The notes under the pieces are model-generated. The model saw only the letters and a list, made by a program, of their open reading frames with translations. It had not been told where the DNA came from and did not search any database. From a virus: a stretch of 27,575 nucleotides of DNA. Position numbers and translations under genes: made by a program. Positions 6,409 through 25,367 of this stretch are shown piece by piece. Position 1 is the first letter of the stretch. The number at the start of each line of letters is the position of its first letter. The stretch covers positions 1-27,575 of the IMG/VR virus record IMGVR_UViG_3300025168_000515. One strand, given 5' to 3'.

Positions 6409-6437
6409 AGTTATAATAGAAAATTTAGGAGAAATTG

Positions 6438-9400
6438 ATGGCAGAACAAACTTTCAGATCTCCGGGATTCTTTGAGCGAGAGATTGATCTTACTCAGCGT
6501 ACTACAGAAATTGTAGGCACCCCGGCAGGAGTAATTGGAACTTCACAAAAAGGACCTGCGTTTGTTCCGGTAACCGTTGGTTCATTTGCTGACTTTGAAT
6601 CAAAATTTGGAACTCTAGATCCAGATAGATTTGGCCCTTATGCTGCAAATGAGTGGCTTAAAAATAGAACATCGCTAACTTACGTTAGAGTCTTAGGCGC
6701 AGGATCAAATTCCAGCACATCAGATATATCAGTTACACAAACAGCAGGAACAGTTAAAAACGCAGGGTTCTTACTTTCTGGTTCAAGGGCACACACAGAA
6801 GACGCAAGATATAACGGCGTCGTTCAGTTTTTAGGTGCAACACACGAAACAAGAACTGATGAGCCTACTGGATATCCTGTATTTACAGACAATAGCTCTA
6901 CAGATTCTACAGGAGGAATTAATCTATTACGTTCAGTTATTTTAACTGCGTCAGGTTCAAGATTACTTGTTTTAGATGCAAATCAATCATATACAGTTGA
7001 TAATGTATCAAATGACATTGCAACAATCAGTGCTTATGACGGAACTGCTGAGCAAGGAATATTTAAGCTTGTTCTTTCTTCTGCGATGGGATCATCATTT
7101 GGAAATGATGAGTCAAAAGCAGGACTTAGAATCTACACTGCTTCTCTTGATCCTTCAAGCCAACACTATGTTGGAAAAATACTAAATACAAGCCCAGATA
7201 GATTTGGAACAGAACAACATTTACTATATGCTGATTTACCTGTTGAATCTGAAATTGCAAGAGTAAAAGTTGCTGCAGGATCTGTGGCCGTGTTATCAGG
7301 TTCTGGTAACGTTGTGGGTTCTGGAGGCTTATCTGGTACACCCTTTACAGAGCTTTTTGGAAAGTTTAATACAAGGTACCAGACATCTAAATCTACTTCT
7401 TTCATATCGCAACCTTTTGGTGATTCAGAGTATGATCTTTTTCACTTTGAATCTCTTGATGACGGAATATCAGGAAATAAAAGAGTTAAGGTGTCGATAA
7501 CAAACTTAAGAAGATCAACAAATCCCAAAGATCTATATGGTACTTTTACAGTTTTGGTTAGAGACTATTACGATACAGACACAGATATTAGAATTCTAGA
7601 ACAGTATCCTTTGTGCACTTTAAATCCTGCTGATGGTGACTATGTTGGTACTAAAATTGGTGATTTAAGCGCAAAATATAATTTTGACGCAGAAACAGAA
7701 TCTGAGCGCAGGCTAAACGTAACAGGCAAAAGACCAAATAGATCTAGATACGTTAGAATTGTAATGAATGCTTCTGTTGAAGATGGCGATGTTCCTGCTC
7801 AAGCACTTCCTTTCGGATTTAGAGGCTTACCTGCAATAAAAACCACAACTTCTTTAACAGAAAATAGTTCATTTTTAGAAGGTGGAACATTAAACACATC
7901 AACGGGTGCCAGGCTCGGCTGTGTAGGTAGTAAAATTTTAACAGGATCAATTGTACCGCCCGTCCCAATGAGATTTAAAGCAACAAGAGGCGCAGTTTCA
8001 TCTTCTCCTTCTTTTGCAGGACACCCAGGTTTGCTTGAACTTGCAGATAATCGTATGTTTTTTGGCATAAAATTTGAAAGAGTACCTCTTGCAAGTGCAA
8101 TTACAAACCCTCTCTTGCAATCAAACGGTTCAGGAACTAGAAATAAATTACTTGACTCTTACTCTAAGCTATTAGGTATACAAAAGTCAGATGTTGTTGT
8201 TTCTGGTTCAAGTGCAGATTTAATTAACGATAATAAGTTTACTTTATCAAGAGTGGCACTTTCGAATAGACCTGCATCAGCAACACAAACACTAGACGAC
8301 GCTGTATCATTATCAACACAGTTAACTGGCTCTGTGTCTGATCATATGGTTGAGGCAGCGTACATAAGAAACGGTGTAATTGTTAAACCTAGATATACAA
8401 TTACAGACGGAACATTTAATAGATTAACCTTTGGAAGTTTAGCTGCTGCTAGATCTGCAACTGCATTTAATAAGTTTTCTGAATATATGAAGTTTACAAA
8501 TATGCTTTACGGTGGGTTTGACGGTCTTAACATATTAGACAGAGATCAAAGACTCATGAACGATAAGGCTTCAGATGCCGATTCAGGAGGAAAAGCAGCA
8601 GGCGGCGCAGACGGGTACATAAACCTTTCGTCTAACTCTTCGCCGGGTGCTGGAAAAGAAAACAACTCAATTAGCTCTTATAGAACTGCGATTTCAATAC
8701 TTACTGATCCTTTTGCTTCAAGAGTAAATATTGTCTCTATACCGGGAATTAGAAGCTCTTTTGTAACTGATCGTGCAATGGAAAAAACCAAAGAGTATTC
8801 TAAAGCGATATACTTGATGGACATTCCTGCTTACGATGATGATCTAAACAGACTTTATGACGATGCTACATCTAGACCAAACGTAAGAAAAACAACAGAA
8901 CAATTTGAGGCAAGAGCTCTTGATAATAACTACACAGCAACTTACTTTCCAGATGTAATTATTAATGACGAAATAAACGGAGATTCAGTAAACGTACCTG
9001 CGACAGTAGCAGCAATTGGTGCACTTGGGTTTAATGATAGAGTTGCTTTTCCTTGGTTCGCTCCTGCAGGATTTAATAGGGGTTCGCTAGACACTGTTTT
9101 AAATACTGAGGTGAGGCTCAACGCTGAAGATAGAAATGTTCTTTATGAATCAAGGATCAATCCAATTGCTTCTTTTCCTGATGGTGGCTTTGTAATTTTT
9201 GGACAAAAGACGCTTCAACAGGCTAAGTCTTCACTAGACAGAGTGAACGTTAGAAGAATGCTCTTAGAAGTAAAGAGAATCGTTTCTGATATTGCAAACG
9301 GTCTAATATTTGAACAAAATACCCCTGCGACAAGAGCAAGATTTATAAAACTTACAAAGCCAAAACTTGCAAGTATTCAGTCAAATCAAGGAATCGATTT

Positions 9401-9551
9401 ATTTAAGGTAGTAATGAACTCTTCTAACAATACCGCAGAAGATGCAGAGCAAAATAGACTTAATGGAAGGGTTATCTTAGTACCTACAAGAGCAGCAGAA
9501 TTTATTGCAATAGATTTCATTATTACCAATTCAGGCGTAAGTTTTGAATAA
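6438..9551 (+). CDS. 18: Tail sheath protein, T4 gp18-like (copy A)
   Basis: Encodes 1037 residues against 659 in T4. I use ATG 6438, with AGGAGA (6427-6432) upstream, rather than the adjacent TTG 6435. gp18 subunits form the contractile sheath around the tube. The N-terminal domain begins with REIDLT and continues through GTPAGVIGTSQKGPAFVP and YVRVLGAG. The C-terminal domain has PWFAPAGFNRG (around residue 872), GQKTL and LDRVNVRR (around 933), the conserved tube-proximal region of contractile sheaths. The extra length lies in the middle, probably as surface-exposed insertions. A second, clearly paralogous sheath gene begins 27 bases after its stop. Confidence 0.95.
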   Translation: MAEQTFRSPGFFEREIDLTQRTTEIVGTPAGVIGTSQKGPAFVPVTVGSFADFESKFGTLDPDRFGPYAANEWLKNRTSLTYVRVLGAGSNSSTSDISVTQTAGTVKNAGFLLSGSRAHTEDARYNGVVQFLGATHETRTDEPTGYPVFTDNSSTDSTGGINLLRSVILTASGSRLLVLDANQSYTVDNVSNDIATISAYDGTAEQGIFKLVLSSAMGSSFGNDESKAGLRIYTASLDPSSQHYVGKILNTSPDRFGTEQHLLYADLPVESEIARVKVAAGSVAVLSGSGNVVGSGGLSGTPFTELFGKFNTRYQTSKSTSFISQPFGDSEYDLFHFESLDDGISGNKRVKVSITNLRRSTNPKDLYGTFTVLVRDYYDTDTDIRILEQYPLCTLNPADGDYVGTKIGDLSAKYNFDAETESERRLNVTGKRPNRSRYVRIVMNASVEDGDVPAQALPFGFRGLPAIKTTTSLTENSSFLEGGTLNTSTGARLGCVGSKILTGSIVPPVPMRFKATRGAVSSSPSFAGHPGLLELADNRMFFGIKFERVPLASAITNPLLQSNGSGTRNKLLDSYSKLLGIQKSDVVVSGSSADLINDNKFTLSRVALSNRPASATQTLDDAVSLSTQLTGSVSDHMVEAAYIRNGVIVKPRYTITDGTFNRLTFGSLAAARSATAFNKFSEYMKFTNMLYGGFDGLNILDRDQRLMNDKASDADSGGKAAGGADGYINLSSNSSPGAGKENNSISSYRTAISILTDPFASRVNIVSIPGIRSSFVTDRAMEKTKEYSKAIYLMDIPAYDDDLNRLYDDATSRPNVRKTTEQFEARALDNNYTATYFPDVIINDEINGDSVNVPATVAAIGALGFNDRVAFPWFAPAGFNRGSLDTVLNTEVRLNAEDRNVLYESRINPIASFPDGGFVIFGQKTLQQAKSSLDRVNVRRMLLEVKRIVSDIANGLIFEQNTPATRARFIKLTKPKLASIQSNQGIDLFKVVMNSSNNTAEDAEQNRLNGRVILVPTRAAEFIAIDFIITNSGVSFE

Positions 9552-9578: not shown

Positions 9579-12500
9579 ATGGCAGAACTAACTTTTAAAT
9601 CAGCAGGTGTAAGCACAAGAGAGATAGATCTTTCTGGCCCAACCCCTACTGGCCCTACAGGTGTACCAGCTGGAATTGTTGGCACGTCGGTTGAAGGGCC
9701 TGCTTTTGTACCACTTACATTTGCAAATTACGGAGAGTTTAAACTAGCATACGGTGCATCAGATGGATCTAAGTTTGGTCCAATTGCTGTAAATCAATGG
9801 CTAAAAAATGCTCAAGCAGTTACATATGTGAGAGTCTTAGGCGCAGGCGATGGAAAGAAAAGAAGCTCTGCTACAGGAAATGTTACAAATGCAGGGTTTG
9901 TAGCGGGTGCTTCTCAAGTTCAAGATAATGGAATAGTAGGAAACAACGTATATGCAAATGCAGGCGGAGATGGCCACGGAAGAGCGTATTTCCTAGGGTG
10001 TTTTATGTCTGAATCTGCAGGAAGCACAATTTTTTCTGATGCTGGTATTCAAAGCACAAATCAGACAAAAGTAAAGTCAGTCGCTGGATTCAAGGCTGTT
10101 GCACACTTAACAGGCGCGATTGTTGTAGAAAATACAACAGGTCTTAAAAGAGCATACCACTTTCACTCTGCTGCAAACGGAACTGCGGCACCAGCAACTA
10201 CTGCCCTTCCATCAGGTGTATTTATTAAAACAGACGGAGTTGCAGTTAATACAATTGCTTCTTCTTTTATATCACAGCTTGCAGATACCGACTCTCACTC
10301 AGGTACAATAACCGGTGGAACAAATGCGTCTTTAGCTCACTTCACTCAGTCGCTAGGTGGCATTTTTGGTAATACACTAATTTCTTATATTGACACAGGT
10401 GTGGCTGCATCAGCAGCAGCTAAAGTAACTTCACTAAGTAGAGATACACAGTTTAGATCAGGTTCAACAGCAGGCGGTGCAGTTCCTATTCTTAGAGGGG
10501 TCTTGCTTGCACCTAGTGGTGTAGTTCTTTCGCTTAGTGGAAATCTTGGAGGAACAAATACATCACCTGCTTCAACAGCAAATTCTTCAACAGTCAGAGG
10601 TTTTACTTCAGGTTCAATTAAGTTAACAGCAGGCGCACAAGATTTTGTACTCTTTATGAACGGTTATAAAGGTACAACTTCAAACCCAACTGCAATAACA
10701 GCTTCTTTCGATATGACTGCAAATAATTACTTTGCAAACGTCTTGAATACAGACCCTCTAAAAACTGAAGAAAAGGGTCACTTTCTTTATGGTTCATACG
10801 ATATTTATCCGACACTTGCAGTTGTAACAGGTGCAGACTCTGTTAGACCGGGCGCCTATTTGAAAGATGAAGAACCAGCTGCTATGATCCTTACTTCATC
10901 GCAAGCTAGAGTTGCAGCTGCAACAGGGGCACCTTCATCAACCGTTCCGGTTTATGAGTCTTTTGAAGATAGATTTAACTCAGCTAAATCTCCATACGTA
11001 ACTTCTCAAGGATTTGGTGCATCGCCTTATGACTTATTTAGAGTAAAAGCTCTTTCAGACGGAGCAGGGCTTTCAACAACATTTAAAGTTTCAATAGAAA
11101 ACATTGTCAAATCAAATTCAGATTCTGACCTTTACGGTACTTTTGATCTTCTTGTAAGAAAATTTGATGATACTGATGATGAACGTGTTGTTTTAGAGTC
11201 TTTTAGAGGGCTTTCTTTGGATCCTGGTTCTAGTAGATATGTTGCTAGGGCAATTGGAGATCAAGAAATACTTTTTAATTTTGACAATGACGCAGAATCT
11301 CAAAAAATTGTTGTTGACGGAACACACACTGTTAGATCAAGATATATTAGAGTTCAAATGTCTAATGCAATGAAAAAGAAAGAAGTACCTGATGAGGCAC
11401 TTCCTGTCGGGTTTAGAGGGCCCAACCACTTAGTTACATCTGGTTCTTTATTAAACTTTGTTCCTGTACCAGATTCAGTCAGTTCAGCTGCTATTCATAG
11501 AAGAATAATAGAACCTCCTTTCCCATACAGAATAAGTATTGCGCAAGGAACTGGGCTTAGCAAGCGTTCTGATGCAAATCTATACTGGGGTATGCAACCT
11601 AATAGAAGAGAAACAATTGCAACACCAAACGCAAACACTCCAATTGATGAGTCACTAAAGACATTTGTTAAGTACTTTCCAGACCATAGAAAAGATTCAA
11701 TTAATTTTTCTGTAGGTGGAAATGCAGGTGTGGCAGATCAAAATGGCACTGTGTTAGACAGCGACAGGTTTAACAATAACAGATTTTCATTAGAAAAAAT
11801 TCAAGTTAGAACTGGATCAAATACTTTTGCAGATCCGGAATACTGGCTTAGTGCATCTTATGTTAGGAATGGTGTAATAGCTGCAAACGCTACGAAGAAA
11901 ACAAGAGGCCTTACAGTAGATGACTTTGATATTGTAGGTAACAGAAAATATCTAAAATTTACACTGCCTCTTCAAGGCGGCTTTGACGGTGTAGATATTT
12001 TTAACAAAGACAAGCGTGACTTAACAAACAATGCTGCAAAGCGTGAAATAGATGATGAAACAAATCAAGGCGGCACAGCAGGATCAACAATTTCAGCTTA
12101 TAGAAAAGCTGTTGATATAATGGCTTCGACGTCAGACGTTGATATTCAGCTGCTTTCAGTTCCTGGAATAAGACACTCAGCTGTATCAGATTATGCAATT
12201 GATGCAATGGAAAATAGGTTTGATGCAATGTTGATTATGGACATTGAAGAAAGAGACCAGTTTAACACGGTTATTACTTCTTCAATTCAAAATCCACATG
12301 TTGCAAATACAGTTACGTCATTTAAGAATCGCGCACTCGACTCATCTTTTGCTGCTGCTTACTTTCCTGACGTGACAATTGAAGACCCGGATACAAGAGC
12401 GCTTGTTTCTGTGCCACCTTCAGTTGTTACAATTGGTGCTTACTCACTCAATGACAGAGTTGGTCATCCTTGGTTTGCGCCTGCAGGATTTACAAGAGGC

Positions 12501-12965
12501 GCTCTAAACACCGTAGAAAGTACAAACGTCAGCCTTAACAGGACAAACTTAGATGATCTTTATGATGCTGATATTAACCCTCTGGCGCAATATCCTGGAA
12601 GACCTCTTTCAATATGGGGCCAGAAGACACTACTTGCAGCAAACTCTGCGCTTGACAGAGTAAATGTTAGAAGGCTGTTAATTGATGTTCGTAGAAAAGT
12701 TCGAGGAGTTGCAAATACACTTCTCTTTGAACCTAACAGAACAGAAACACTTGATAGATTCTCAAACCTTGTTAATCCAATTTTGCAGTCTGTTCAAGAT
12801 GGTCAGGGTGTTGATAGATTCAAAGTAATTATTGATACAACTACTACAACACAGGCAGATGTTGAGAACAATACAATTAGAGGAAAGATCTTCCTTCAAC
12901 CTACAAGATCAATCGAATTCGTTGCACTAGACTTTGTTGTCACAAATGCTGGAACAACTATCTAG
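9579..12965 (+). CDS. 18: Tail sheath protein, T4 gp18-like (copy B, paralogue)
   Basis: Encodes 1128 residues, starting at ATG 9579 behind ACGGAGA. It shares with copy A the start (REIDLS), VPAGIVGTSVEGPAFVP, YVRVLGAG, the C-terminal HPWFAPAGFTRG (about residue 964), GQKTL, LDRVNVRR (about 1024) and the closing strands (PTRSIEFVALDFVVTNAGT). The middle differs strongly in sequence and length, with more Thr/Ser/Ala/Gly-rich blocks at about residues 90-330. Both copies keep the tube-contacting core and neither is disrupted, so both are probably made. They may co-assemble, occupy different parts of the tail, or one may carry host- or environment-facing decoration. Confidence 0.95.
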   Translation: MAELTFKSAGVSTREIDLSGPTPTGPTGVPAGIVGTSVEGPAFVPLTFANYGEFKLAYGASDGSKFGPIAVNQWLKNAQAVTYVRVLGAGDGKKRSSATGNVTNAGFVAGASQVQDNGIVGNNVYANAGGDGHGRAYFLGCFMSESAGSTIFSDAGIQSTNQTKVKSVAGFKAVAHLTGAIVVENTTGLKRAYHFHSAANGTAAPATTALPSGVFIKTDGVAVNTIASSFISQLADTDSHSGTITGGTNASLAHFTQSLGGIFGNTLISYIDTGVAASAAAKVTSLSRDTQFRSGSTAGGAVPILRGVLLAPSGVVLSLSGNLGGTNTSPASTANSSTVRGFTSGSIKLTAGAQDFVLFMNGYKGTTSNPTAITASFDMTANNYFANVLNTDPLKTEEKGHFLYGSYDIYPTLAVVTGADSVRPGAYLKDEEPAAMILTSSQARVAAATGAPSSTVPVYESFEDRFNSAKSPYVTSQGFGASPYDLFRVKALSDGAGLSTTFKVSIENIVKSNSDSDLYGTFDLLVRKFDDTDDERVVLESFRGLSLDPGSSRYVARAIGDQEILFNFDNDAESQKIVVDGTHTVRSRYIRVQMSNAMKKKEVPDEALPVGFRGPNHLVTSGSLLNFVPVPDSVSSAAIHRRIIEPPFPYRISIAQGTGLSKRSDANLYWGMQPNRRETIATPNANTPIDESLKTFVKYFPDHRKDSINFSVGGNAGVADQNGTVLDSDRFNNNRFSLEKIQVRTGSNTFADPEYWLSASYVRNGVIAANATKKTRGLTVDDFDIVGNRKYLKFTLPLQGGFDGVDIFNKDKRDLTNNAAKREIDDETNQGGTAGSTISAYRKAVDIMASTSDVDIQLLSVPGIRHSAVSDYAIDAMENRFDAMLIMDIEERDQFNTVITSSIQNPHVANTVTSFKNRALDSSFAAAYFPDVTIEDPDTRALVSVPPSVVTIGAYSLNDRVGHPWFAPAGFTRGALNTVESTNVSLNRTNLDDLYDADINPLAQYPGRPLSIWGQKTLLAANSALDRVNVRRLLIDVRRKVRGVANTLLFEPNRTETLDRFSNLVNPILQSVQDGQGVDRFKVIIDTTTTTQADVENNTIRGKIFLQPTRSIEFVALDFVVTNAGTTI

Positions 12966-12996: not shown

Positions 12997-13485
12997 ATGG
13001 CAGAAACACTATCAGTCACAGATATGTTACCAAACAAATTTGAGCCGAAAAGAAATTACCGGTGGGTACTTGCAATTGAAGGAATTGATTCGTTCTTAGT
13101 TGCAAAGGCAAACAGACCGTCAATTACTTTAACAGACAAGAAAATTGATTTTATAAACAGCTATCGCAGAGTAGCTGGAAAGCTTGAGTTTGGTGATTTA
13201 TCTGTAACACTTCACGATCCCATAGCTCCTTCAGGCGCACAGCAAGTAATGGAATGGATTAGAACTCATTACGAATCAGTTTCAGGTAGAGCTGGGTATG
13301 CAGATTTCTACAAGAGAGATATTCAGCTAAAAATGCTTGACCCAATTGGTACAGTTATTGAACTTTGGGATGTAAAAGGCTGTTTAATAACAAATACAAA
13401 CTTTCAATCACTTGACTACGGAAGCGATGATATTCAAATGATTGATCTTACAATAAAGTTTGACAACTGCGTTCTACAATTCTGA
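12997..13485 (+). CDS. 19: Tail tube protein, T4 gp19-like
   Basis: Encodes 162 residues, practically the same as T4 gp19 (163). ATG 12997 is preceded by GAGGAG. It forms the inner tube of the tail that conducts DNA. Family features are the N-terminal FEPKRNYRWVLAIEGID strand pair, the ANRPSI segment, the LEFGDLSVTLHDP block and the closing strands WDVKGCLITNTNF and LTIKFDNCVLQF. It directly follows the sheath genes, as in T4. A strong hairpin terminator follows (13512-13544), as expected for a protein needed in more copies than the downstream assembly and baseplate proteins. Confidence 0.95.
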   Translation: MAETLSVTDMLPNKFEPKRNYRWVLAIEGIDSFLVAKANRPSITLTDKKIDFINSYRRVAGKLEFGDLSVTLHDPIAPSGAQQVMEWIRTHYESVSGRAGYADFYKRDIQLKMLDPIGTVIELWDVKGCLITNTNFQSLDYGSDDIQMIDLTIKFDNCVLQF

Positions 13486-13511: not shown

Positions 13512-13544
13512 AAGCGATCGTATATTTATTACGATCGCTTTTTT
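13512..13544 (+). terminator. Strong rho-independent terminator between tail tube and chaperone genes
   Basis: AAGCGATCGTA (13512-13522) pairs perfectly over 11 bases with TACGATCGCTT (13530-13540) across a seven-base loop, and six T (13539-13544) follow. The next gene's GGAG (13547-13550) begins directly afterwards. Downstream genes must therefore rely on read-through or on promoters not visible here. Confidence 0.85.
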
Positions 13545-13555
13545 ATGGAGTAAAT

Positions 13556-14386
13556 ATGTCTAAGACAGAATTAATGGGCGCGACACCTGAAGGTGTCTCA
13601 CGTCAAAATGTGATGAAAGAAGAGTTTGGGTGGGAGGTGCCCGTTGAAGCTATTCCGCTTCCATCTCGTGGTTCACTATACGATCCTAATTCTATTTTAT
13701 ACAATAGAGATACTTTAAAAATAAAGTCTATGACTGCACATGAAGAAGATATACTTGCTTCTCCTGCTTTTCATAAAGATGGCTCTGTAATAACTCAACT
13801 AATTAAGTCTTGCTTGACAGATAAGTCAATAGATCCGGACCAGCTAATATTAGGTGATAGAATATCACTTATGGTAGGTATAAGAGTTACTGGCTATGGC
13901 CCTTCTTATAATGCTTCTTCAACCTGTCAAAGCTGTGGCCACTTAAATAAGTTTGAAGCAGATCTTTCTGCTTTAGAAATTAATAGATTAAAAATAGAAC
14001 CTGTATCACCAGGTAGGAATGAGTTTGAATTTAGCCTTCCTGTTACAAAGAAAAAAGTTACTTTTAAATACTTAACGGGAGGAGAAGATAGATTAAGAAA
14101 TCAAACTTTAAAAAATCAATCAAAAGTGTTAGGTCTTAAAATTGACAACAGTATTACTTCTTACCTTGAAAGCACTATAATATCAGTAGACGGAATTAGA
14201 GATAGATTGAAGATAAAGCATTTTATTCATAATATGCCTGCTTTTGATTCAAAAAAATTAAGGTCATTTATTGTAGATAACGAGCCAGGCATTAACATGT
14301 CTCATAGTCTTACTTGCGAAAGTTGTGGTGCAAGTAGTGATGTTTCTCTCCCCATAACTTCCGAGTTTTTTTGGCCCAGTACATAA
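13556..14386 (+). CDS. 26: gp26/T4_baseplate-family protein; N-terminal part of a candidate frameshifted tail assembly chaperone
   Basis: The zero-frame product is 276 residues. The sequence LPSRGSLYD (35-43), the helical region ending in ILGDRISLMVGIRVTGYG and the following STCQSCGH are typical of the T4_baseplate family that includes gp26. C124-x2-C127 and C254-x2-C257 probably bind one zinc ion. The frame ends in FFWPST. Between 14358 and 14386 it overlaps an open +1/-2 frame that continues to 14609 and contains seven consecutive T at 14366-14372. Its position between tail tube and tape measure is where most tailed phages place a tail assembly chaperone made in two forms by programmed frameshifting. 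Start ATG 13556 follows TGGAG immediately after the terminator. Confidence 0.88.
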   Translation: MSKTELMGATPEGVSRQNVMKEEFGWEVPVEAIPLPSRGSLYDPNSILYNRDTLKIKSMTAHEEDILASPAFHKDGSVITQLIKSCLTDKSIDPDQLILGDRISLMVGIRVTGYGPSYNASSTCQSCGHLNKFEADLSALEINRLKIEPVSPGRNEFEFSLPVTKKKVTFKYLTGGEDRLRNQTLKNQSKVLGLKIDNSITSYLESTIISVDGIRDRLKIKHFIHNMPAFDSKKLRSFIVDNEPGINMSHSLTCESCGASSDVSLPITSEFFWPST

Positions 14387-14609
14387 CTGGAGAGAAGCAT
14401 TCTTAGAAGAATGCTTCCTGCTTCAGATGCACTTGGGTATGTCATACACAGAGTTGCGAAGATTACCAGTTAGATACAGAACTTGGTATATAAAAAGATT
14501 GTCTAAGCATTTTGAAGATAAAAGAAAATCAATAGATAAAACACCCGATAGCGCTTCAAGTCAAGGATCATTTGACAAGTTTGAGAAAATGGTTAATCAA
14601 AAATTGTAA
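14358..14609 (+). CDS. Frameshifted C-terminal extension of the tail assembly chaperone candidate
   Basis: This frame is open from 14358 and has no good start: ATG 14427 and ATG 14442 both lack ribosome binding sites. Translated from the slip site it reads FGPVHNWREAFLEECFLLQ and then MHLGMSYTELRRLPVRYRTWYIKRLSK. This looks like the C-terminal helical domain of tail assembly chaperone T-type extensions, with a Trp, an acidic helix, a LPVRYR turn and a basic helix. Joining gene 26 by a +1 shift (skipping T14372) gives about 350 residues; a -2 shift on the same T run gives one residue more. The conserved-looking sequence begins before ATG 14427, which argues strongly that the segment is reached by shifting. 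The shift itself is inferred. Confidence 0.75.
   Translation, partial: LPSFFGPVHNWREAFLEECFLLQMHLGMSYTELRRLPVRYRTWYIKRLSKHFEDKRKSIDKTPDSASSQGSFDKFEKMVNQKL
14366..14372 (+). other. Candidate programmed frameshift (slip) site, seven T
   Basis: The zero-frame codons are GAG TTT TTT TGG CCC; the extension frame reads TTT GGC CCA. The two frames are open together only from 14358 to 14386, bounded by TAA in the extension frame at 14355-14357 and TAA in the zero frame at 14384-14386. The T run is the only homopolymer in that window. The shift required is +1 or -2, not the common -1. Confidence 0.65.
14394..14417 (+). other. Stem-loop downstream of the slip site, possible frameshift stimulator
   Basis: GAAGCATTCT (14394-14403) pairs perfectly with AGAATGCTTC (14408-14417) around a four-base loop TAGA. 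It begins 21 bases after the T run, inside the extension reading frame. There is no T run after it, so it is not a terminator. The distance is longer than for classical -1 stimulators. Confidence 0.5.
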
Positions 14610-16847: not shown

Positions 16848-17096
16848 ATGAAATACTACCAACAAATACTAGACGACCTTTGCAAACAAAAAGATATTTT
16901 TTGTGAAGGAATGTCAGAAGAAGAAATTAAAGAAATAGATACTTATTTAGAAGAAGTTGTAAAAGAAATGGCTTCTTTCTTAGAAAATGTTGATCATATT
17001 GCTGAGGATCCACAAAAAAGAAAACGTGCAGCAGAACTTTTTAAAAATGAAATTAAGGAACAAGGATGGCAAGAGAAACTTTCAAAGATTTCTTAA
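16848..17096 (+). CDS. Small acidic helical protein, unknown
   Basis: Encodes 82 residues, with ATG 16848 eight bases after the tape-measure stop and a weak GAGAAG upstream. It is rich in Glu and Lys, with an almost wholly helical pattern (EEEIKEIDTYLEEVVKEM) and one Cys pair (C12, C19). The last 31 bases overlap the start of the next gene, whose ribosome binding site (AAGGA at 17056-17060) lies within this ORF, so translation is likely coupled. Its place between tape measure and baseplate genes suggests a small assembly factor or tape-measure partner. I do not recognise the family. Confidence 0.7.
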   Translation: MKYYQQILDDLCKQKDIFCEGMSEEEIKEIDTYLEEVVKEMASFLENVDHIAEDPQKRKRAAELFKNEIKEQGWQEKLSKIS

Positions 17097-20000
17097 GAAA
17101 TGAATCCCTACCTGCTGGAAAAGAAAATCCAGAGGGCATGATCAGCTACACAGTTGATGGCATTGCAGCGTTTGGAGATTCGTCTGGTTTAGGTTTGGAA
17201 ACAAATACTGGCCAGCCGCTTGTAGGTTTTGATGCTGCAGACCCTGATTCTGGTTTAACCGGTAGATTTTTAGATCACATAGTTAGAGAAGAAAATAATT
17301 TTTACAACTTCAAGAGAGGAAATTCTGAAGTTAATGCTGGAAATAGAGGTGATCATTTACAAGATCAAGATAGCTTTTTAGCAGGACCTTCTGACCCTAA
17401 GGGTTTACCTTATGTACCTCAAGGCACAGTAGAAGATGGACTACTAGAAGAGTACAGTAATAGTAGAAACTTTGAAGACATAACTTCAAACAACCCTAAC
17501 ACAGTAAGCCTAGATTCAATAATAAGCAAGGTTGACGGAGCACCGCGTGGTCCTGGATCTGAAAATGGACCATTTAATCAAAGAAGAGGCGCAAATGAGT
17601 TGTTAAAAGACTTATATGTGTCGGAAGACGGAACAGGCCCTACTGACTTTGTAGTTAAAGCATCAGTTGAGTCTCTTAAAAGAAACAATAGATTTAACAT
17701 TGAAAACAATTATTTAGAAACCAATACTTTTCCTGCAAGATCAGATATAGATTCAAATATAAATATGACAATACCTGGCTATAGAGGCATAGATCAAGAT
17801 GGCGACGGCAGACGTGACGAAAGAATAGTTTCAAGTACTTCGCTAGATGACCTTAAAAACATTGGATCTTCATTGCTTCTCAGGGCGTCAGGATATGATA
17901 TAAAAACAAGCCCAGGAAAAGACTTAGAAGTTGTTGAATCAACATTGTCAAATATTGCGTCAGGAGATCTTGAAGAATCACTTTACACTCAAAAGAAAGT
18001 AATGTCCAGACTTCTTGCAATGAATGCTACAGGTTTTCCGGCGACTGATCCGCTAGGTGTTTCTGTAAGAGCAGGAACAGGCATTGACCTTGACTATTCA
18101 AACGAAGAGTCGAAAAACTCTAATTCTTTTGGGTCAACTTACAACGATGCTGTTAGATTTACTGACTATTCTAGAGCGCTAAGGATTAAAACTGCCTTTA
18201 GATTAGTCGCAGTAGTAAGTGCTGCTAAAATACTTTTTGAATCAATTACAGATGAGTTAAGCACAAAAGAAATTAAAAAAATAAAAGAAGACATAAAAAC
18301 CATAGCTAAGAAGACAGACAAGGTACAGGCAGGAAAGCTTATTTTAGGGCAAAGTAGAAATTCAACAAGGTTTGTTGCCAAAAACTACTTTATGAATAAT
18401 CTTCTGACAGTGACATCGTTTAACTACGAAGAGTGTTTTAATGAAGGGCTTTTTGCTTTGTTTGGTAATAAGTCTGGCGAAGATTTAACAAAAGACGCTT
18501 TAGACGCAAACTCTACTAGCAAAGGTGCAAGTGTTAGAAAACTAGATTTTTCTGACTCACCTGGTTTTTGGCACGCTGTTTCAAACTCAATTATGAATTC
18601 TTTAGATGGATTTTCTGGCAACTTAGAAAACATTGGCGCGCCAAATAATGGTGACACAGAATCTGAAAAAGCTGCTATATCAAGGCTGCTTAATGAAAAT
18701 GATAAAATTCTTAAGGTTGTAAATATTATTGCGATTATAGGTGAGAAAAGTCTTCATGCAAAAAATGCTGTTAAAAATGCAAAGCTAAAAAATATAGAAC
18801 TTACAAGAGATCCGGACGCTCTTCCAAACTTACCTGGTCATAGAGTTGGAAAGAGCAGAATAGGAAAACAACCAGGCTCTTCAAGTGCTATGAATCCATC
18901 AATGGGCAATGAAACAACACTCGCTTGGGAGCAGAGCAGTGTGCCTTCTATGTACTTGCTTCCAATGAATATTATTCGAGCTGCCCAGACTCTAAATAAC
19001 TCTTTCTCAGGCGAAAATCCTATGCATGGAATGCTAGGTAGTAGAATGGTTAGAAATACGTATACTGGGCTTGATACAGACGGGTCAGCTGCTAGAATAC
19101 CAGGGCGTGTAGCAAAGATTGTTGAAGATCGACTAGACGCTGAATATGTTCCTTTTTACTTTCATGATTTAAGAACAAATGAAATTGTATCTTTTCATGC
19201 ATTTTTATCACAGCTAACAGATACAATTAGCCCACAATATACTCAAACATCTGCATTTGGTCGAATGGATCCTGTTCAAACTTATCAGAGTACAACAAGA
19301 TCTCTAAGCGTAGGTTTTACTGTTTACGCAACAAACAGAGAAGACTTTGATGAAATGTGGTACAAGATTAACAAGCTTGTGACAATGTTGTATCCTCAGT
19401 GGACAGCAGGTACGCTTGTCCAAGGAAGCCGAGGTGATCTATTTGGAGACCCGCCTAGTTTTTACCAGCCTATGAGTCAAGTCATTGGTGCGTCGCCTCT
19501 AATACGTCTTCGAGTTGGAGATGTAATTAAATCAAACTATTCAAAATTTGGGTTAGCAAGAACTTTTGGAATAGGTGACACGGGGATAAACGCAAGAATA
19601 AATGAAAAAACTTCTGGTGCTTTGAGCGATCCAACGACAATTGGCGGCTCTATATTTTCTGAAATTGTTACAGTAGTCAGAGAAGCAGCAATAACAATTC
19701 TTGTAGGTGTGTTTGGCTCACCACAGGGTCTACTTCAGATGCTTTCAACTGACGCACAAGAAATAGAGTCTGTTATGGGTAGAGTTGCTGCCCTAGGGGC
19801 TACTGATGCTGCGGCATCCGCTCTTTCTGAAATTCTTGTAAACGGTTTTGCAAACCCTCTAATGACAGCACAAATTATCGATAATATGAAAGATCCCAAT
19901 GTTTCTGGCGAAGATAAAAATCTACCTAAAGCATTTAAATATTTAAATCCAAACTTTATAGATGGATACTTTTGTGAAGACGATGGAAAAACTTACTTTA

Positions 20001-20722
20001 CAACAAAGCGAGTAATAATAGATGTTTTAGAAACAGTAAAAGGTACAGATGACAAGTTTTACTTTAAAGCAGAAGTAAAAGACAAGACCGCAGGTGAGCT
20101 ATTTCAAAAGAAAATCTTAATTAGACATGAAGATATATTTAATAGCCCGACTAGAACATTTAGCACTTCTTTAGCAGGAATACTTTTTGGCATTGGATCT
20201 CTAGACGCAGCCGGGGCACTAAATCTTGCAGCCCGAGCAGTATTTGGTGGCGGTCAAGCAGGTGGAGCGCTGACAGGTACAGTTAATTTTGCAACAAGTT
20301 TCTTGTCGTTTCTAATAGAAAACCCAGAGACTGTATTTATGAGACCAGAAGTCAACCCTTTTGTTCGTGCATTTAAATCTACTCGAGGACGAGGACTGGC
20401 GGGTGTTATGAAAGGTATTAACTTTAACTGGCTTGAGGACAACATTCCTTGGGAAACTGACTTTAATGCTCGTGCACCAATTGGATGTAACATAAGCTTT
20501 CAGTTTGATGTCATACATGACTTACCACCCGGTCTTGATCACACTGGCTATAACAGAGCACCACTCTATAATGTTGGTGAAATAATGAGAAGCATATCAG
20601 GCGACCCTTACGAAGAAGTCATATCAGAATCAGAACTTAACTTTAGAAAAGCAGGTAATCGAGGCGTTTTCCTTGACGGTGAACAGTATAGAACTCAAGG
20701 CACAGAAAAAGGTAAGAAATAA
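17066..20722 (+). CDS. Large baseplate/tail-hub structural protein, unassigned family
   Basis: Encodes 1218 residues from ATG 17066. The N-terminal 300 residues are polar and Gly/Asn-rich and include a DQDGDGRRDE loop (residues 243-252) of the type that binds calcium. Residues about 400-600 are helical. Residues about 695-840 contain FHDLRTNEIVSFHAFLSQL, SAFGRMDPVQTYQSTTRSL, MWYKINKLVTMLYPQW and LIRLRVGDVIKSNY. This strand-helix pattern resembles tube-initiator or hub proteins of contractile tails (T4 gp48/gp54 position), though I cannot name the family. The C-terminal part carries another beta-rich module. The stop overlaps the next start (TAATG), tying it to the LysM protein. A baseplate or tube-initiation role is inferred from location and fold pattern. 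Confidence 0.7.
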   Translation: MARETFKDFLRNESLPAGKENPEGMISYTVDGIAAFGDSSGLGLETNTGQPLVGFDAADPDSGLTGRFLDHIVREENNFYNFKRGNSEVNAGNRGDHLQDQDSFLAGPSDPKGLPYVPQGTVEDGLLEEYSNSRNFEDITSNNPNTVSLDSIISKVDGAPRGPGSENGPFNQRRGANELLKDLYVSEDGTGPTDFVVKASVESLKRNNRFNIENNYLETNTFPARSDIDSNINMTIPGYRGIDQDGDGRRDERIVSSTSLDDLKNIGSSLLLRASGYDIKTSPGKDLEVVESTLSNIASGDLEESLYTQKKVMSRLLAMNATGFPATDPLGVSVRAGTGIDLDYSNEESKNSNSFGSTYNDAVRFTDYSRALRIKTAFRLVAVVSAAKILFESITDELSTKEIKKIKEDIKTIAKKTDKVQAGKLILGQSRNSTRFVAKNYFMNNLLTVTSFNYEECFNEGLFALFGNKSGEDLTKDALDANSTSKGASVRKLDFSDSPGFWHAVSNSIMNSLDGFSGNLENIGAPNNGDTESEKAAISRLLNENDKILKVVNIIAIIGEKSLHAKNAVKNAKLKNIELTRDPDALPNLPGHRVGKSRIGKQPGSSSAMNPSMGNETTLAWEQSSVPSMYLLPMNIIRAAQTLNNSFSGENPMHGMLGSRMVRNTYTGLDTDGSAARIPGRVAKIVEDRLDAEYVPFYFHDLRTNEIVSFHAFLSQLTDTISPQYTQTSAFGRMDPVQTYQSTTRSLSVGFTVYATNREDFDEMWYKINKLVTMLYPQWTAGTLVQGSRGDLFGDPPSFYQPMSQVIGASPLIRLRVGDVIKSNYSKFGLARTFGIGDTGINARINEKTSGALSDPTTIGGSIFSEIVTVVREAAITILVGVFGSPQGLLQMLSTDAQEIESVMGRVAALGATDAAASALSEILVNGFANPLMTAQIIDNMKDPNVSGEDKNLPKAFKYLNPNFIDGYFCEDDGKTYFTTKRVIIDVLETVKGTDDKFYFKAEVKDKTAGELFQKKILIRHEDIFNSPTRTFSTSLAGILFGIGSLDAAGALNLAARAVFGGGQAGGALTGTVNFATSFLSFLIENPETVFMRPEVNPFVRAFKSTRGRGLAGVMKGINFNWLEDNIPWETDFNARAPIGCNISFQFDVIHDLPPGLDHTGYNRAPLYNVGEIMRSISGDPYEEVISESELNFRKAGNRGVFLDGEQYRTQGTEKGKK

Positions 20723-24287: not shown

Positions 24288-25367
24288 ATGCTTCAAAAGA
24301 ACTACAAAAAGAAAAGTATAGGTACACTACAAATAAATTCAGAGTTTACTAGATCTGGTAAAAATAAGATTGTAAAAATATCAAATTCTGATGATGTTTT
24401 GTCTATTAGAAATATTAATAAGTTTAGATCTTTATCTAATCTAGAAACAATCAAAGACTATAGAGGATATTTTTATAACTTTTCTAGAGATCTTAATATC
24501 ATTAATACAGATGTCAGATGGGATCTATTATTAGGTAATGGTATTTGTGACAAATATGACAAAGATCTTTTAAATAAAATTAAATTTTCTATTGATAAAA
24601 TTACTTCATATCATACTAATATTCTTAATAGAAGAAAGACACTATACGAAAATCTAAACAAGATTCTGGATGAGTCAGGTAATGAAATTGAAGTTCCGGA
24701 ATATTCACATGATGGAGTGACAGGCAGAACTACAATTAAAAAAGGTTTTAACTTTTTAACTTCTAAAAAAGAGTTTAGAAAAAAATGCAAATCTAAAAAT
24801 AAAGATAATATGCTGGTCAGTATTGACTTTAAGGCATGCGAGCCTAATCTATACTTAAGATCTTTGGGCATAGAAATATCAGACCCTGATATATACGAAT
24901 TTTTATCTAGTAAGCTTAATTTAGATGTAAAAGATAGAAGTACTTTAAAGAGAGGAATACTGTCAGTTTTGTATGGAGCGTCTGACAGCACTTCAAGTAA
25001 ATTACTAGGAAGTAAAAAACAAAATCTAGACAAGATAAAAAAATTCTTTAAAATCAAAGAGGTAGAAGAAGAACTAAAGGCCCAGTTTCAGAATACAAAT
25101 ACAATTTACAACTTATACGGGAGACCAATACACTCAGACAAAAGCATTCTTAACAAGTGGATTCAATCATCAGCAGTAGATTTTTGTAGTTTAGCATTTT
25201 TAAATTTTGTGGAGGAATTTAATTTAAATGTTTGCTACTTAGTTCATGACGATATGGTTGTAGATATTAGTAAAGAAGAATATGAAAAAATAAAAGACAT
25301 AACCGAGCTTTATGAACCTGACGCAAAATTAAGCCTTCCCGTAGAAATTACTATTCTAAACGCCTAA
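24288..25367 (+). CDS. Compact family-A polymerase-like protein without exonuclease domain
   Basis: Encodes 359 residues. The family-A polymerase motifs occur in order with correct internal spacing: TGR (145-147); motif A IDFKACEPNLYLR with D180 and E185 (equivalent to E. coli Pol I D705 and E710); motif B R217-x3-K221-x7-Y229-G230 (Pol I R754, K758, Y766-G767); LYGRPI (276-281); N289-x3-Q293 (Pol I N845, Q849); and motif C V-H320-D321-D322. Catalytic aspartates are present. The motif B Phe762 position is Leu, and the ILS there resembles the VMT of T7-type RNA polymerases, but the retained motif A Glu favours dNTP use. The 150-residue N-terminus is too short for an exonuclease. It lies among late structural genes and lacks a ribosome binding site. 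It could be a primase-like, repair or virion-associated enzyme; the function is unknown. Confidence 0.85.
   Translation: MLQKNYKKKSIGTLQINSEFTRSGKNKIVKISNSDDVLSIRNINKFRSLSNLETIKDYRGYFYNFSRDLNIINTDVRWDLLLGNGICDKYDKDLLNKIKFSIDKITSYHTNILNRRKTLYENLNKILDESGNEIEVPEYSHDGVTGRTTIKKGFNFLTSKKEFRKKCKSKNKDNMLVSIDFKACEPNLYLRSLGIEISDPDIYEFLSSKLNLDVKDRSTLKRGILSVLYGASDSTSSKLLGSKKQNLDKIKKFFKIKEVEEELKAQFQNTNTIYNLYGRPIHSDKSILNKWIQSSAVDFCSLAFLNFVEEFNLNVCYLVHDDMVVDISKEEYEKIKDITELYEPDAKLSLPVEITILNA

Follow-up and report, generated by a model that had tools for sequence, protein, structure and literature searches.

Tail assembly chaperones of T4-like phages were reportedly identified by Vladimirov et al. 2022 (Virology 566:9). 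In T4 itself, gp26 consists of the PF12322 domain alone and gp51 of PF12322 with a C-terminal extension of about 48 residues, so that T4 makes a short and a long product from two separate genes, which lie on opposite strands. PMC3004832 lists both proteins among the hub assembly chaperones; the tie between gp26 and chaperone function, which the original prediction for the locus studied here had put forward, is therefore not new. A 2016 review names T4 as the exception to the widely conserved frameshift in tail chaperone genes (PMC5009743). Within the T4-like phages, a passage of PMC10885494 (citing Vladimirov et al. 2022) describes separate short and long chaperone genes in some members, and a passage of PMC12846349 (citing the same work) describes poly-T -1 sites in others. 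The lambda G/GT genes (the family of Xu et al. 2004) shift by -1. In other tail chaperone genes the shift is -2 (phage Mu) or probably +1 (HSTV-2; PMC5009743), and neither direction is without precedent among tail chaperone genes overall. Frameshifts of +1 are also known from phage structural genes, as in SPP1 17.1 and Listeria phage PSA.

The DNA analysed here, called the window below, is IMG/VR virus record IMGVR_UViG_3300025168_000515 with a length of 27,575 bases. Its tail module contains, in order, two large sheath genes, a tube gene, a gp26-family gene and a gene for 733 residues (Table 1). The sheath genes, at 6435-9551 (1038 aa) and 9579-12965 (1128 aa), are very large and stand side by side, and both keep the conserved sheath C-terminus (phrog_23). 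In SP-15 a terminator is annotated at a place matching the hairpin found here after the tube gene. The 733-aa product gave no match in family searches, and a BLASTP comparison with the tape measure annotated in phage immuto showed no similarity; its putative tape-measure identity comes from its position and from annotations in relatives. The predicted placement between tube and tape measure is thus confirmed on the tube side, and on the other side it would follow from position and relatives. Two further genes lie downstream: 17066-20722 encodes a 1218-aa protein with no Pfam or PHROG match, and 24288-25367, adjoining the structural module, encodes 359 aa with a match of DNA polymerase type (phrog_17, E 1e-7). 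Neither Rfam nor tRNA scans gave any match in the window.

Table 1. Features of the tail chaperone region in the window
Feature	Position	Strand	Basis
Tail tube protein gene	12997..13485	+	phrog_4542, E 3e-31
Strong hairpin resembling an intrinsic terminator, between tube gene and chaperone gene	13512..13540	+	
gp26-family gene; zero-frame product is the putative short tail assembly chaperone, 276 aa, ending FFWPST	13556..14386	+	PF12322
Region open in both frames, 29 nt	14358..14386	+	
Shift site TTTTTTTGG, zero-frame TTT TTT TGG; tRNA-Phe is proposed to slip by +1 at UUU_U and so pass over one T	14366..14374	+	
+1-frame extension, helical C-terminal domain (predicted), giving a putative long form of 350 aa in total	14370..14609	+	
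Interrupted hairpin directly 3' of the zero-frame stop; clade-specific candidate 3' stimulator	14387..14426	+	
Putative tape measure protein gene, 733 aa	14638..16839	+	Position; tape measure annotated there in relatives

Residues 52-273 of the gp26-family product match PF12322 (T4_baseplate) with E 7e-16, exceeding the curated cut-off, and the product matches phrog_150 with E 7e-19. Its predicted structure (pLDDT 86) has the last helix finishing at the shift site and resembles SP-15, baseplate hub and hub-assembly-chaperone models in BFVD (E to 3e-21); a Foldseek search of the PDB gave nothing, the HK97 chaperone 2ob9 appearing just at E 6.8. The gene closes with TTT TTT TGG CCC AGT ACA TAA (protein ...TSEFFWPST*, stop at 14384-14386). 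A second frame, in +1 (equal to -2) phase to the first, is open exactly from 14358 to 14609 and reads ...FFGPVHNWREAFLEECFLLQMHLGMSYTELRRLPVRYRTWYIKRLSKHF..., and the nucleotides shared by the two frames include TTTTTTT at 14366-14372. In all these particulars the overlap is as originally described. The same is true of the missing start: the first ATG of the extension frame, at 14427, lies past the conserved FFGPVHNWREAFLEECFLLQ, when 20 conserved residues are already gone, and ATG, GTG and TTG are all absent before it.

The extension had also been expected to form a helical domain, and helices are indeed predicted, with core pLDDT above 90; the gp26 part and the extension were modelled separately rather than as a fusion, and the fusion length comes from conceptual translation. 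Among 25 aligned relatives the extension is conserved from FFG on. It shows a weak but recurrent match to DUF6760 (14367-14606 in the window; 16 of the 25 members, best E 1e-4), a family on which a literature search found no paper. Foldseek against BFVD gave nothing significant for the extension, a scan of genome contigs found no relative, and tblastn against cultured phages yielded no match; the cultured relatives were found through gp26 instead.

Relatives were gathered from IMG/VR using both the extension and gp26 as queries. The phase relation is identical in more than 50 of them, at 29% to 81% identity, and wherever both parts were recognised the extension is in +1 phase to gp26 in 136 of 137 loci. 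UUU_Y stands at the identical place in 143/143 distinct +1-phase sites from two large clades, usually as TTTTTTTGG; these contexts correspond to 83 clusters below 80% identity. Conservation of the overlap, proposed earlier as a check, is thereby borne out. TTT TTT TGG accounts for 109 of the 143 pooled sites and TTT CTT TGG for 29, while the lone TTT TTC row in that table is contig L130, which really belongs to a -1 class described below. Nearly all loci of the window's wider relatives carry TTTTTTTGGCC. The clade of Flavobacterium phage immuto contributes 53 distinct sites, all +1 (TTT CTT TGG 26, TTT TTT TGG 23, TTT CTA TGG 3 and TTT CTT TAC 1). Cultured phages share the arrangement, with TTTTTTTGGCC in Microcystis phage Mel-JY01 and TTTCTTTGGCC in immuto, and every +1-phase member examined has UUU_Y, the Gram-positive phages SP-15, GXN1, BRock and pSt2308 included. 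In LIS04 and L047/L048 it is the first of the two codons that supplies the usable UUU_U. L047/L048 (3749-3800) reads TTT TTA TGG and carries a second FFG-like stretch past the zero-frame stop, resembling a partial duplication of the junction.

The base following UUU is T or C exclusively in the 83 clusters, which is what re-pairing of tRNA-Phe(GAA) requires. Codon-position entropy in 30 aligned relatives peaks upstream of the site at the third base of the zero frame (1.71 bits) and downstream at the third base of the +1 frame (1.17 bits, versus 0.48 for the old wobble position); the wobble phase switches at the shift site. Although it is silent in frame 0 and lies 5' of the shift, the third base in the first Phe codon is T in all clusters, as against a TTT usage of 0.81 elsewhere in the +1-class genes, where TTC makes up about one fifth of Phe codons. 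The corresponding probability (P about 2e-8) ignores phylogeny and is naive because the sequences are related. On this comparative evidence both frames are under selection, and the overlap is no product of chance but real and old. Sequencing error, which had been named as a possible cause, is rejected, since 143 distinct contexts from many metagenomes agree with cultured phages.

We consider it quite probable that a programmed +1 frameshift of tRNA-Phe at UUU_Y yields a short and a long tail assembly chaperone. The shift itself, its exact codon and efficiency, and the chaperone function are what we infer, the last from homology and position. Most ribosomes on the gp26-family gene would stop at 14384-14386 and release the 276-aa short chaperone. 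A fraction would slip one base forward at the conserved Phe-Phe codons, with the P-site tRNA-Phe shifting from UUU onto the overlapping UUU or UUC, which it also reads. The shifted ribosomes would read on in the +1 frame as far as 14609 and produce the 350-aa long form, with the junction ...TSEFFGPVHNWR. Judging by analogy from lambda G/GT and T4 gp26/gp51, coating of the tape measure protein would fall to the short form, and the long form would bring in tail tube subunits through its C-terminal helical domain. The programmed frameshift and chaperone role of the original prediction are well supported by comparison, and of the two directions it had left standing, +1 is favoured.

The proposed site resembles bacterial prfB in its CUU_U or UUU_U sequence, the known prfB +1 sites (PMC5009743). 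It differs in that prfB combines a stop codon at the A site with a Shine-Dalgarno (SD) sequence upstream, whereas the A-site codon in the window is a sense codon (TGG or UUU; the codon next to the Phe pair is TGG) and the upstream stimulator is not conserved, SD-like 4-mers occurring in 26/136 loci. These differences count against our best reading, as do tests in E. coli prfB that found UUU_U less shifty than CUU_U (PMC5009743). Canonical -1 slippage (X_XXY_YYZ) does not describe the window, where the extension is in +1 phase and the heptamer would be G_UUU_UUU.

A stem-loop immediately 3' of the stop would tune the rate of shifting in the clade to which the window belongs. In the window it folds with a dG of -21 kcal/mol (z about -3). 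Among 35 distinct relatives 86% of the cells pair and 45 cells show compensatory change on both sides; covariation is 0.278 versus 0.196 in shuffles, of which 0/500 reach the observed value, and slid controls stay at or below 0.155. More distant +1 phages lack the stem-loop, and it is therefore a clade-specific element, one that probably adjusts the shift rate in this clade.

The same extension frame can be reached by other routes. The window's own U7 would let the P-site tRNA-Phe re-pair two bases back, and such a -2 shift, with its precedent in phage Mu (PMC5009743), would leave one extra Phe in the product (EFFFGPVHNWR); the invariant T of the first Phe codon is equally compatible with it. 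Nevertheless, relatives of the same phase offer poor or impossible -2 re-pairing at TTT CTA TGG, TTC TTT CGT (GXN1) and CTG TTT CGC (BRock, pSt2308), and always have UUU_Y. Because UUU_Y occurs in every +1-phase member examined while several relatives offer no -2 re-pairing, +1 is the common denominator, and we favour it over the -2 shift, which we regard as unlikely. In the window's clade the ribosome might instead slip by +1 two codons later, at CCC_N with tRNA-Pro, giving EFFWPVHNWR. Re-pairing on a Pro codon is possible for any CCC_N, Listeria phage PSA sets a precedent (PMC5009743), and CCC is present in 34 of the 35 stem-loop-bearing sequences. The stem would suit this slip better, for it begins 9 nt past CCC but 15 nt past the second Phe codon, a spacer longer than usual. 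In many other +1 relatives, however, the codon is CCT, CCA or CCG, L035 has CCT yet retains the stem, and the invariant wobble bases of TTT TTT are left without explanation, so that a shift at CCC appears quite unlikely. SPP1 17.1 and PSA, although likewise +1 in phage structural genes, shift at CCC mostly beside a stop codon and in genes that encode tube or capsid proteins (PMC6316719, PMC5009743).

Ribosomal shifting could also be dispensed with altogether. The extension might be a separate small gene started through translational coupling, as some annotations have it (Mel-JY01, OLIVR5), and an ATG, GTG or TTG of some kind does occur in frame in 38 of 88 distinct contexts. The other 50 lack any start codon ahead of the core in that frame, only 10/88 have a start with an SD-like sequence, the window offers none before 14427, and conservation begins right at the shift site; we hold this arrangement to be very improbable. 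Slippage of RNA polymerase on the T run, producing mRNAs one T short, might be imagined from the T7 that most members have. It is hardly credible for the class, as T runs never exceed three in 29 distinct sites TTTCTTTGG and 3 sites TTTCTATGG, and the -1 class retains a codon-phased U_UUU_UUY. The +1 shift of tRNA-Phe at UUU_Y remains our preferred explanation.

The jumbo and Agrobacterium phages GAP32, SE_PL, Atu_ph07, PA5oct and OLIVR5 carry T_TTT_TTC where the +1 phages have their Phe-Phe codons, and their extension lies in the -1 frame. L130 and the independent contig L242 (89% identity), both from the window's wider clade, read AAT TTT TTC TGG and also have a -1 extension, and L243 (1470-1560) has a U_UUU_UUU site almost identical to that of the window, yet its extension is in the -1 frame. 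This class shares with the +1 phages the gene and the Phe-Phe place, and differs in the frame of the extension and in the preceding base, which is U in 8/8 of the -1 cases versus 10/83 of the +1 clusters (Fisher P 3e-6, relatedness ignored). Profile comparison between sets without shared sequences relates the extensions of the two classes (P 8e-5 to 5e-7; reversed controls above 0.2). The gp26 tree nests L130 within the +1 rows, and its well-supported branches require at least 2 changes to account for the -1 state. With the -1 frame in distant relatives and in one lineage nested among +1 phages, the direction must have switched. We lean towards a view in which the gp26-family Phe-Phe site is ancient and indifferent to direction, permitting +1 at UUU_Y (with a sense A-site codon and, in one clade, a 3' stem-loop) or -1 at U_UUU_UUY, with at least two switches in an orthologous gene and the preceding base largely setting the direction.

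The locus shares with lambda G/GT its place after the tube gene, a proposed shift close to where the short frame ends and a C-terminal extension of the long form; an overlapping frame with a slippery site near the 3' end is present in 143/143 distinct +1 sites. It differs from lambda in direction and in protein family. The likeness to T4 gp26/gp51 lies in the PF12322 domain and in a short product accompanied by a long one with a C-terminal extension, the difference in the use of one gene with a frame overlap. As some T4-like phages have separate short and long genes and others poly-T -1 sites, this gp26/gp51-type pair is most likely encoded in the window by one frameshifted gene. Aligned directly by hhalign, the extension and the T4 gp51 C-terminus gave a negative result; the -1 class extensions show a weak link to that C-terminus (P 3e-4) and to the +1 class (P 8e-5), which is suggestive of homology between the extension and the gp51 C-terminus.

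Earlier publications already cover poly-T -1 shifts in T4-like phages and the role of gp26/gp51 as chaperones; what is new, so far as we could check, is the conserved +1 class with its stem-loop and the switch of direction. With what is probably a deeply conserved frameshift in a T4-type chaperone gene, the two genes of T4 can be seen as another way of arriving at this pair of products. Many environmental phages and some cultured ones are likely to have one protein per genome mis-annotated, split into a truncated hub protein and a small orphan ORF. The most interesting aspect is that orthologous genes would shift in opposite directions on nearly identical codons: forward or backward according to lineage, they may offer a natural and abundant test of what sets the direction of a frameshift.
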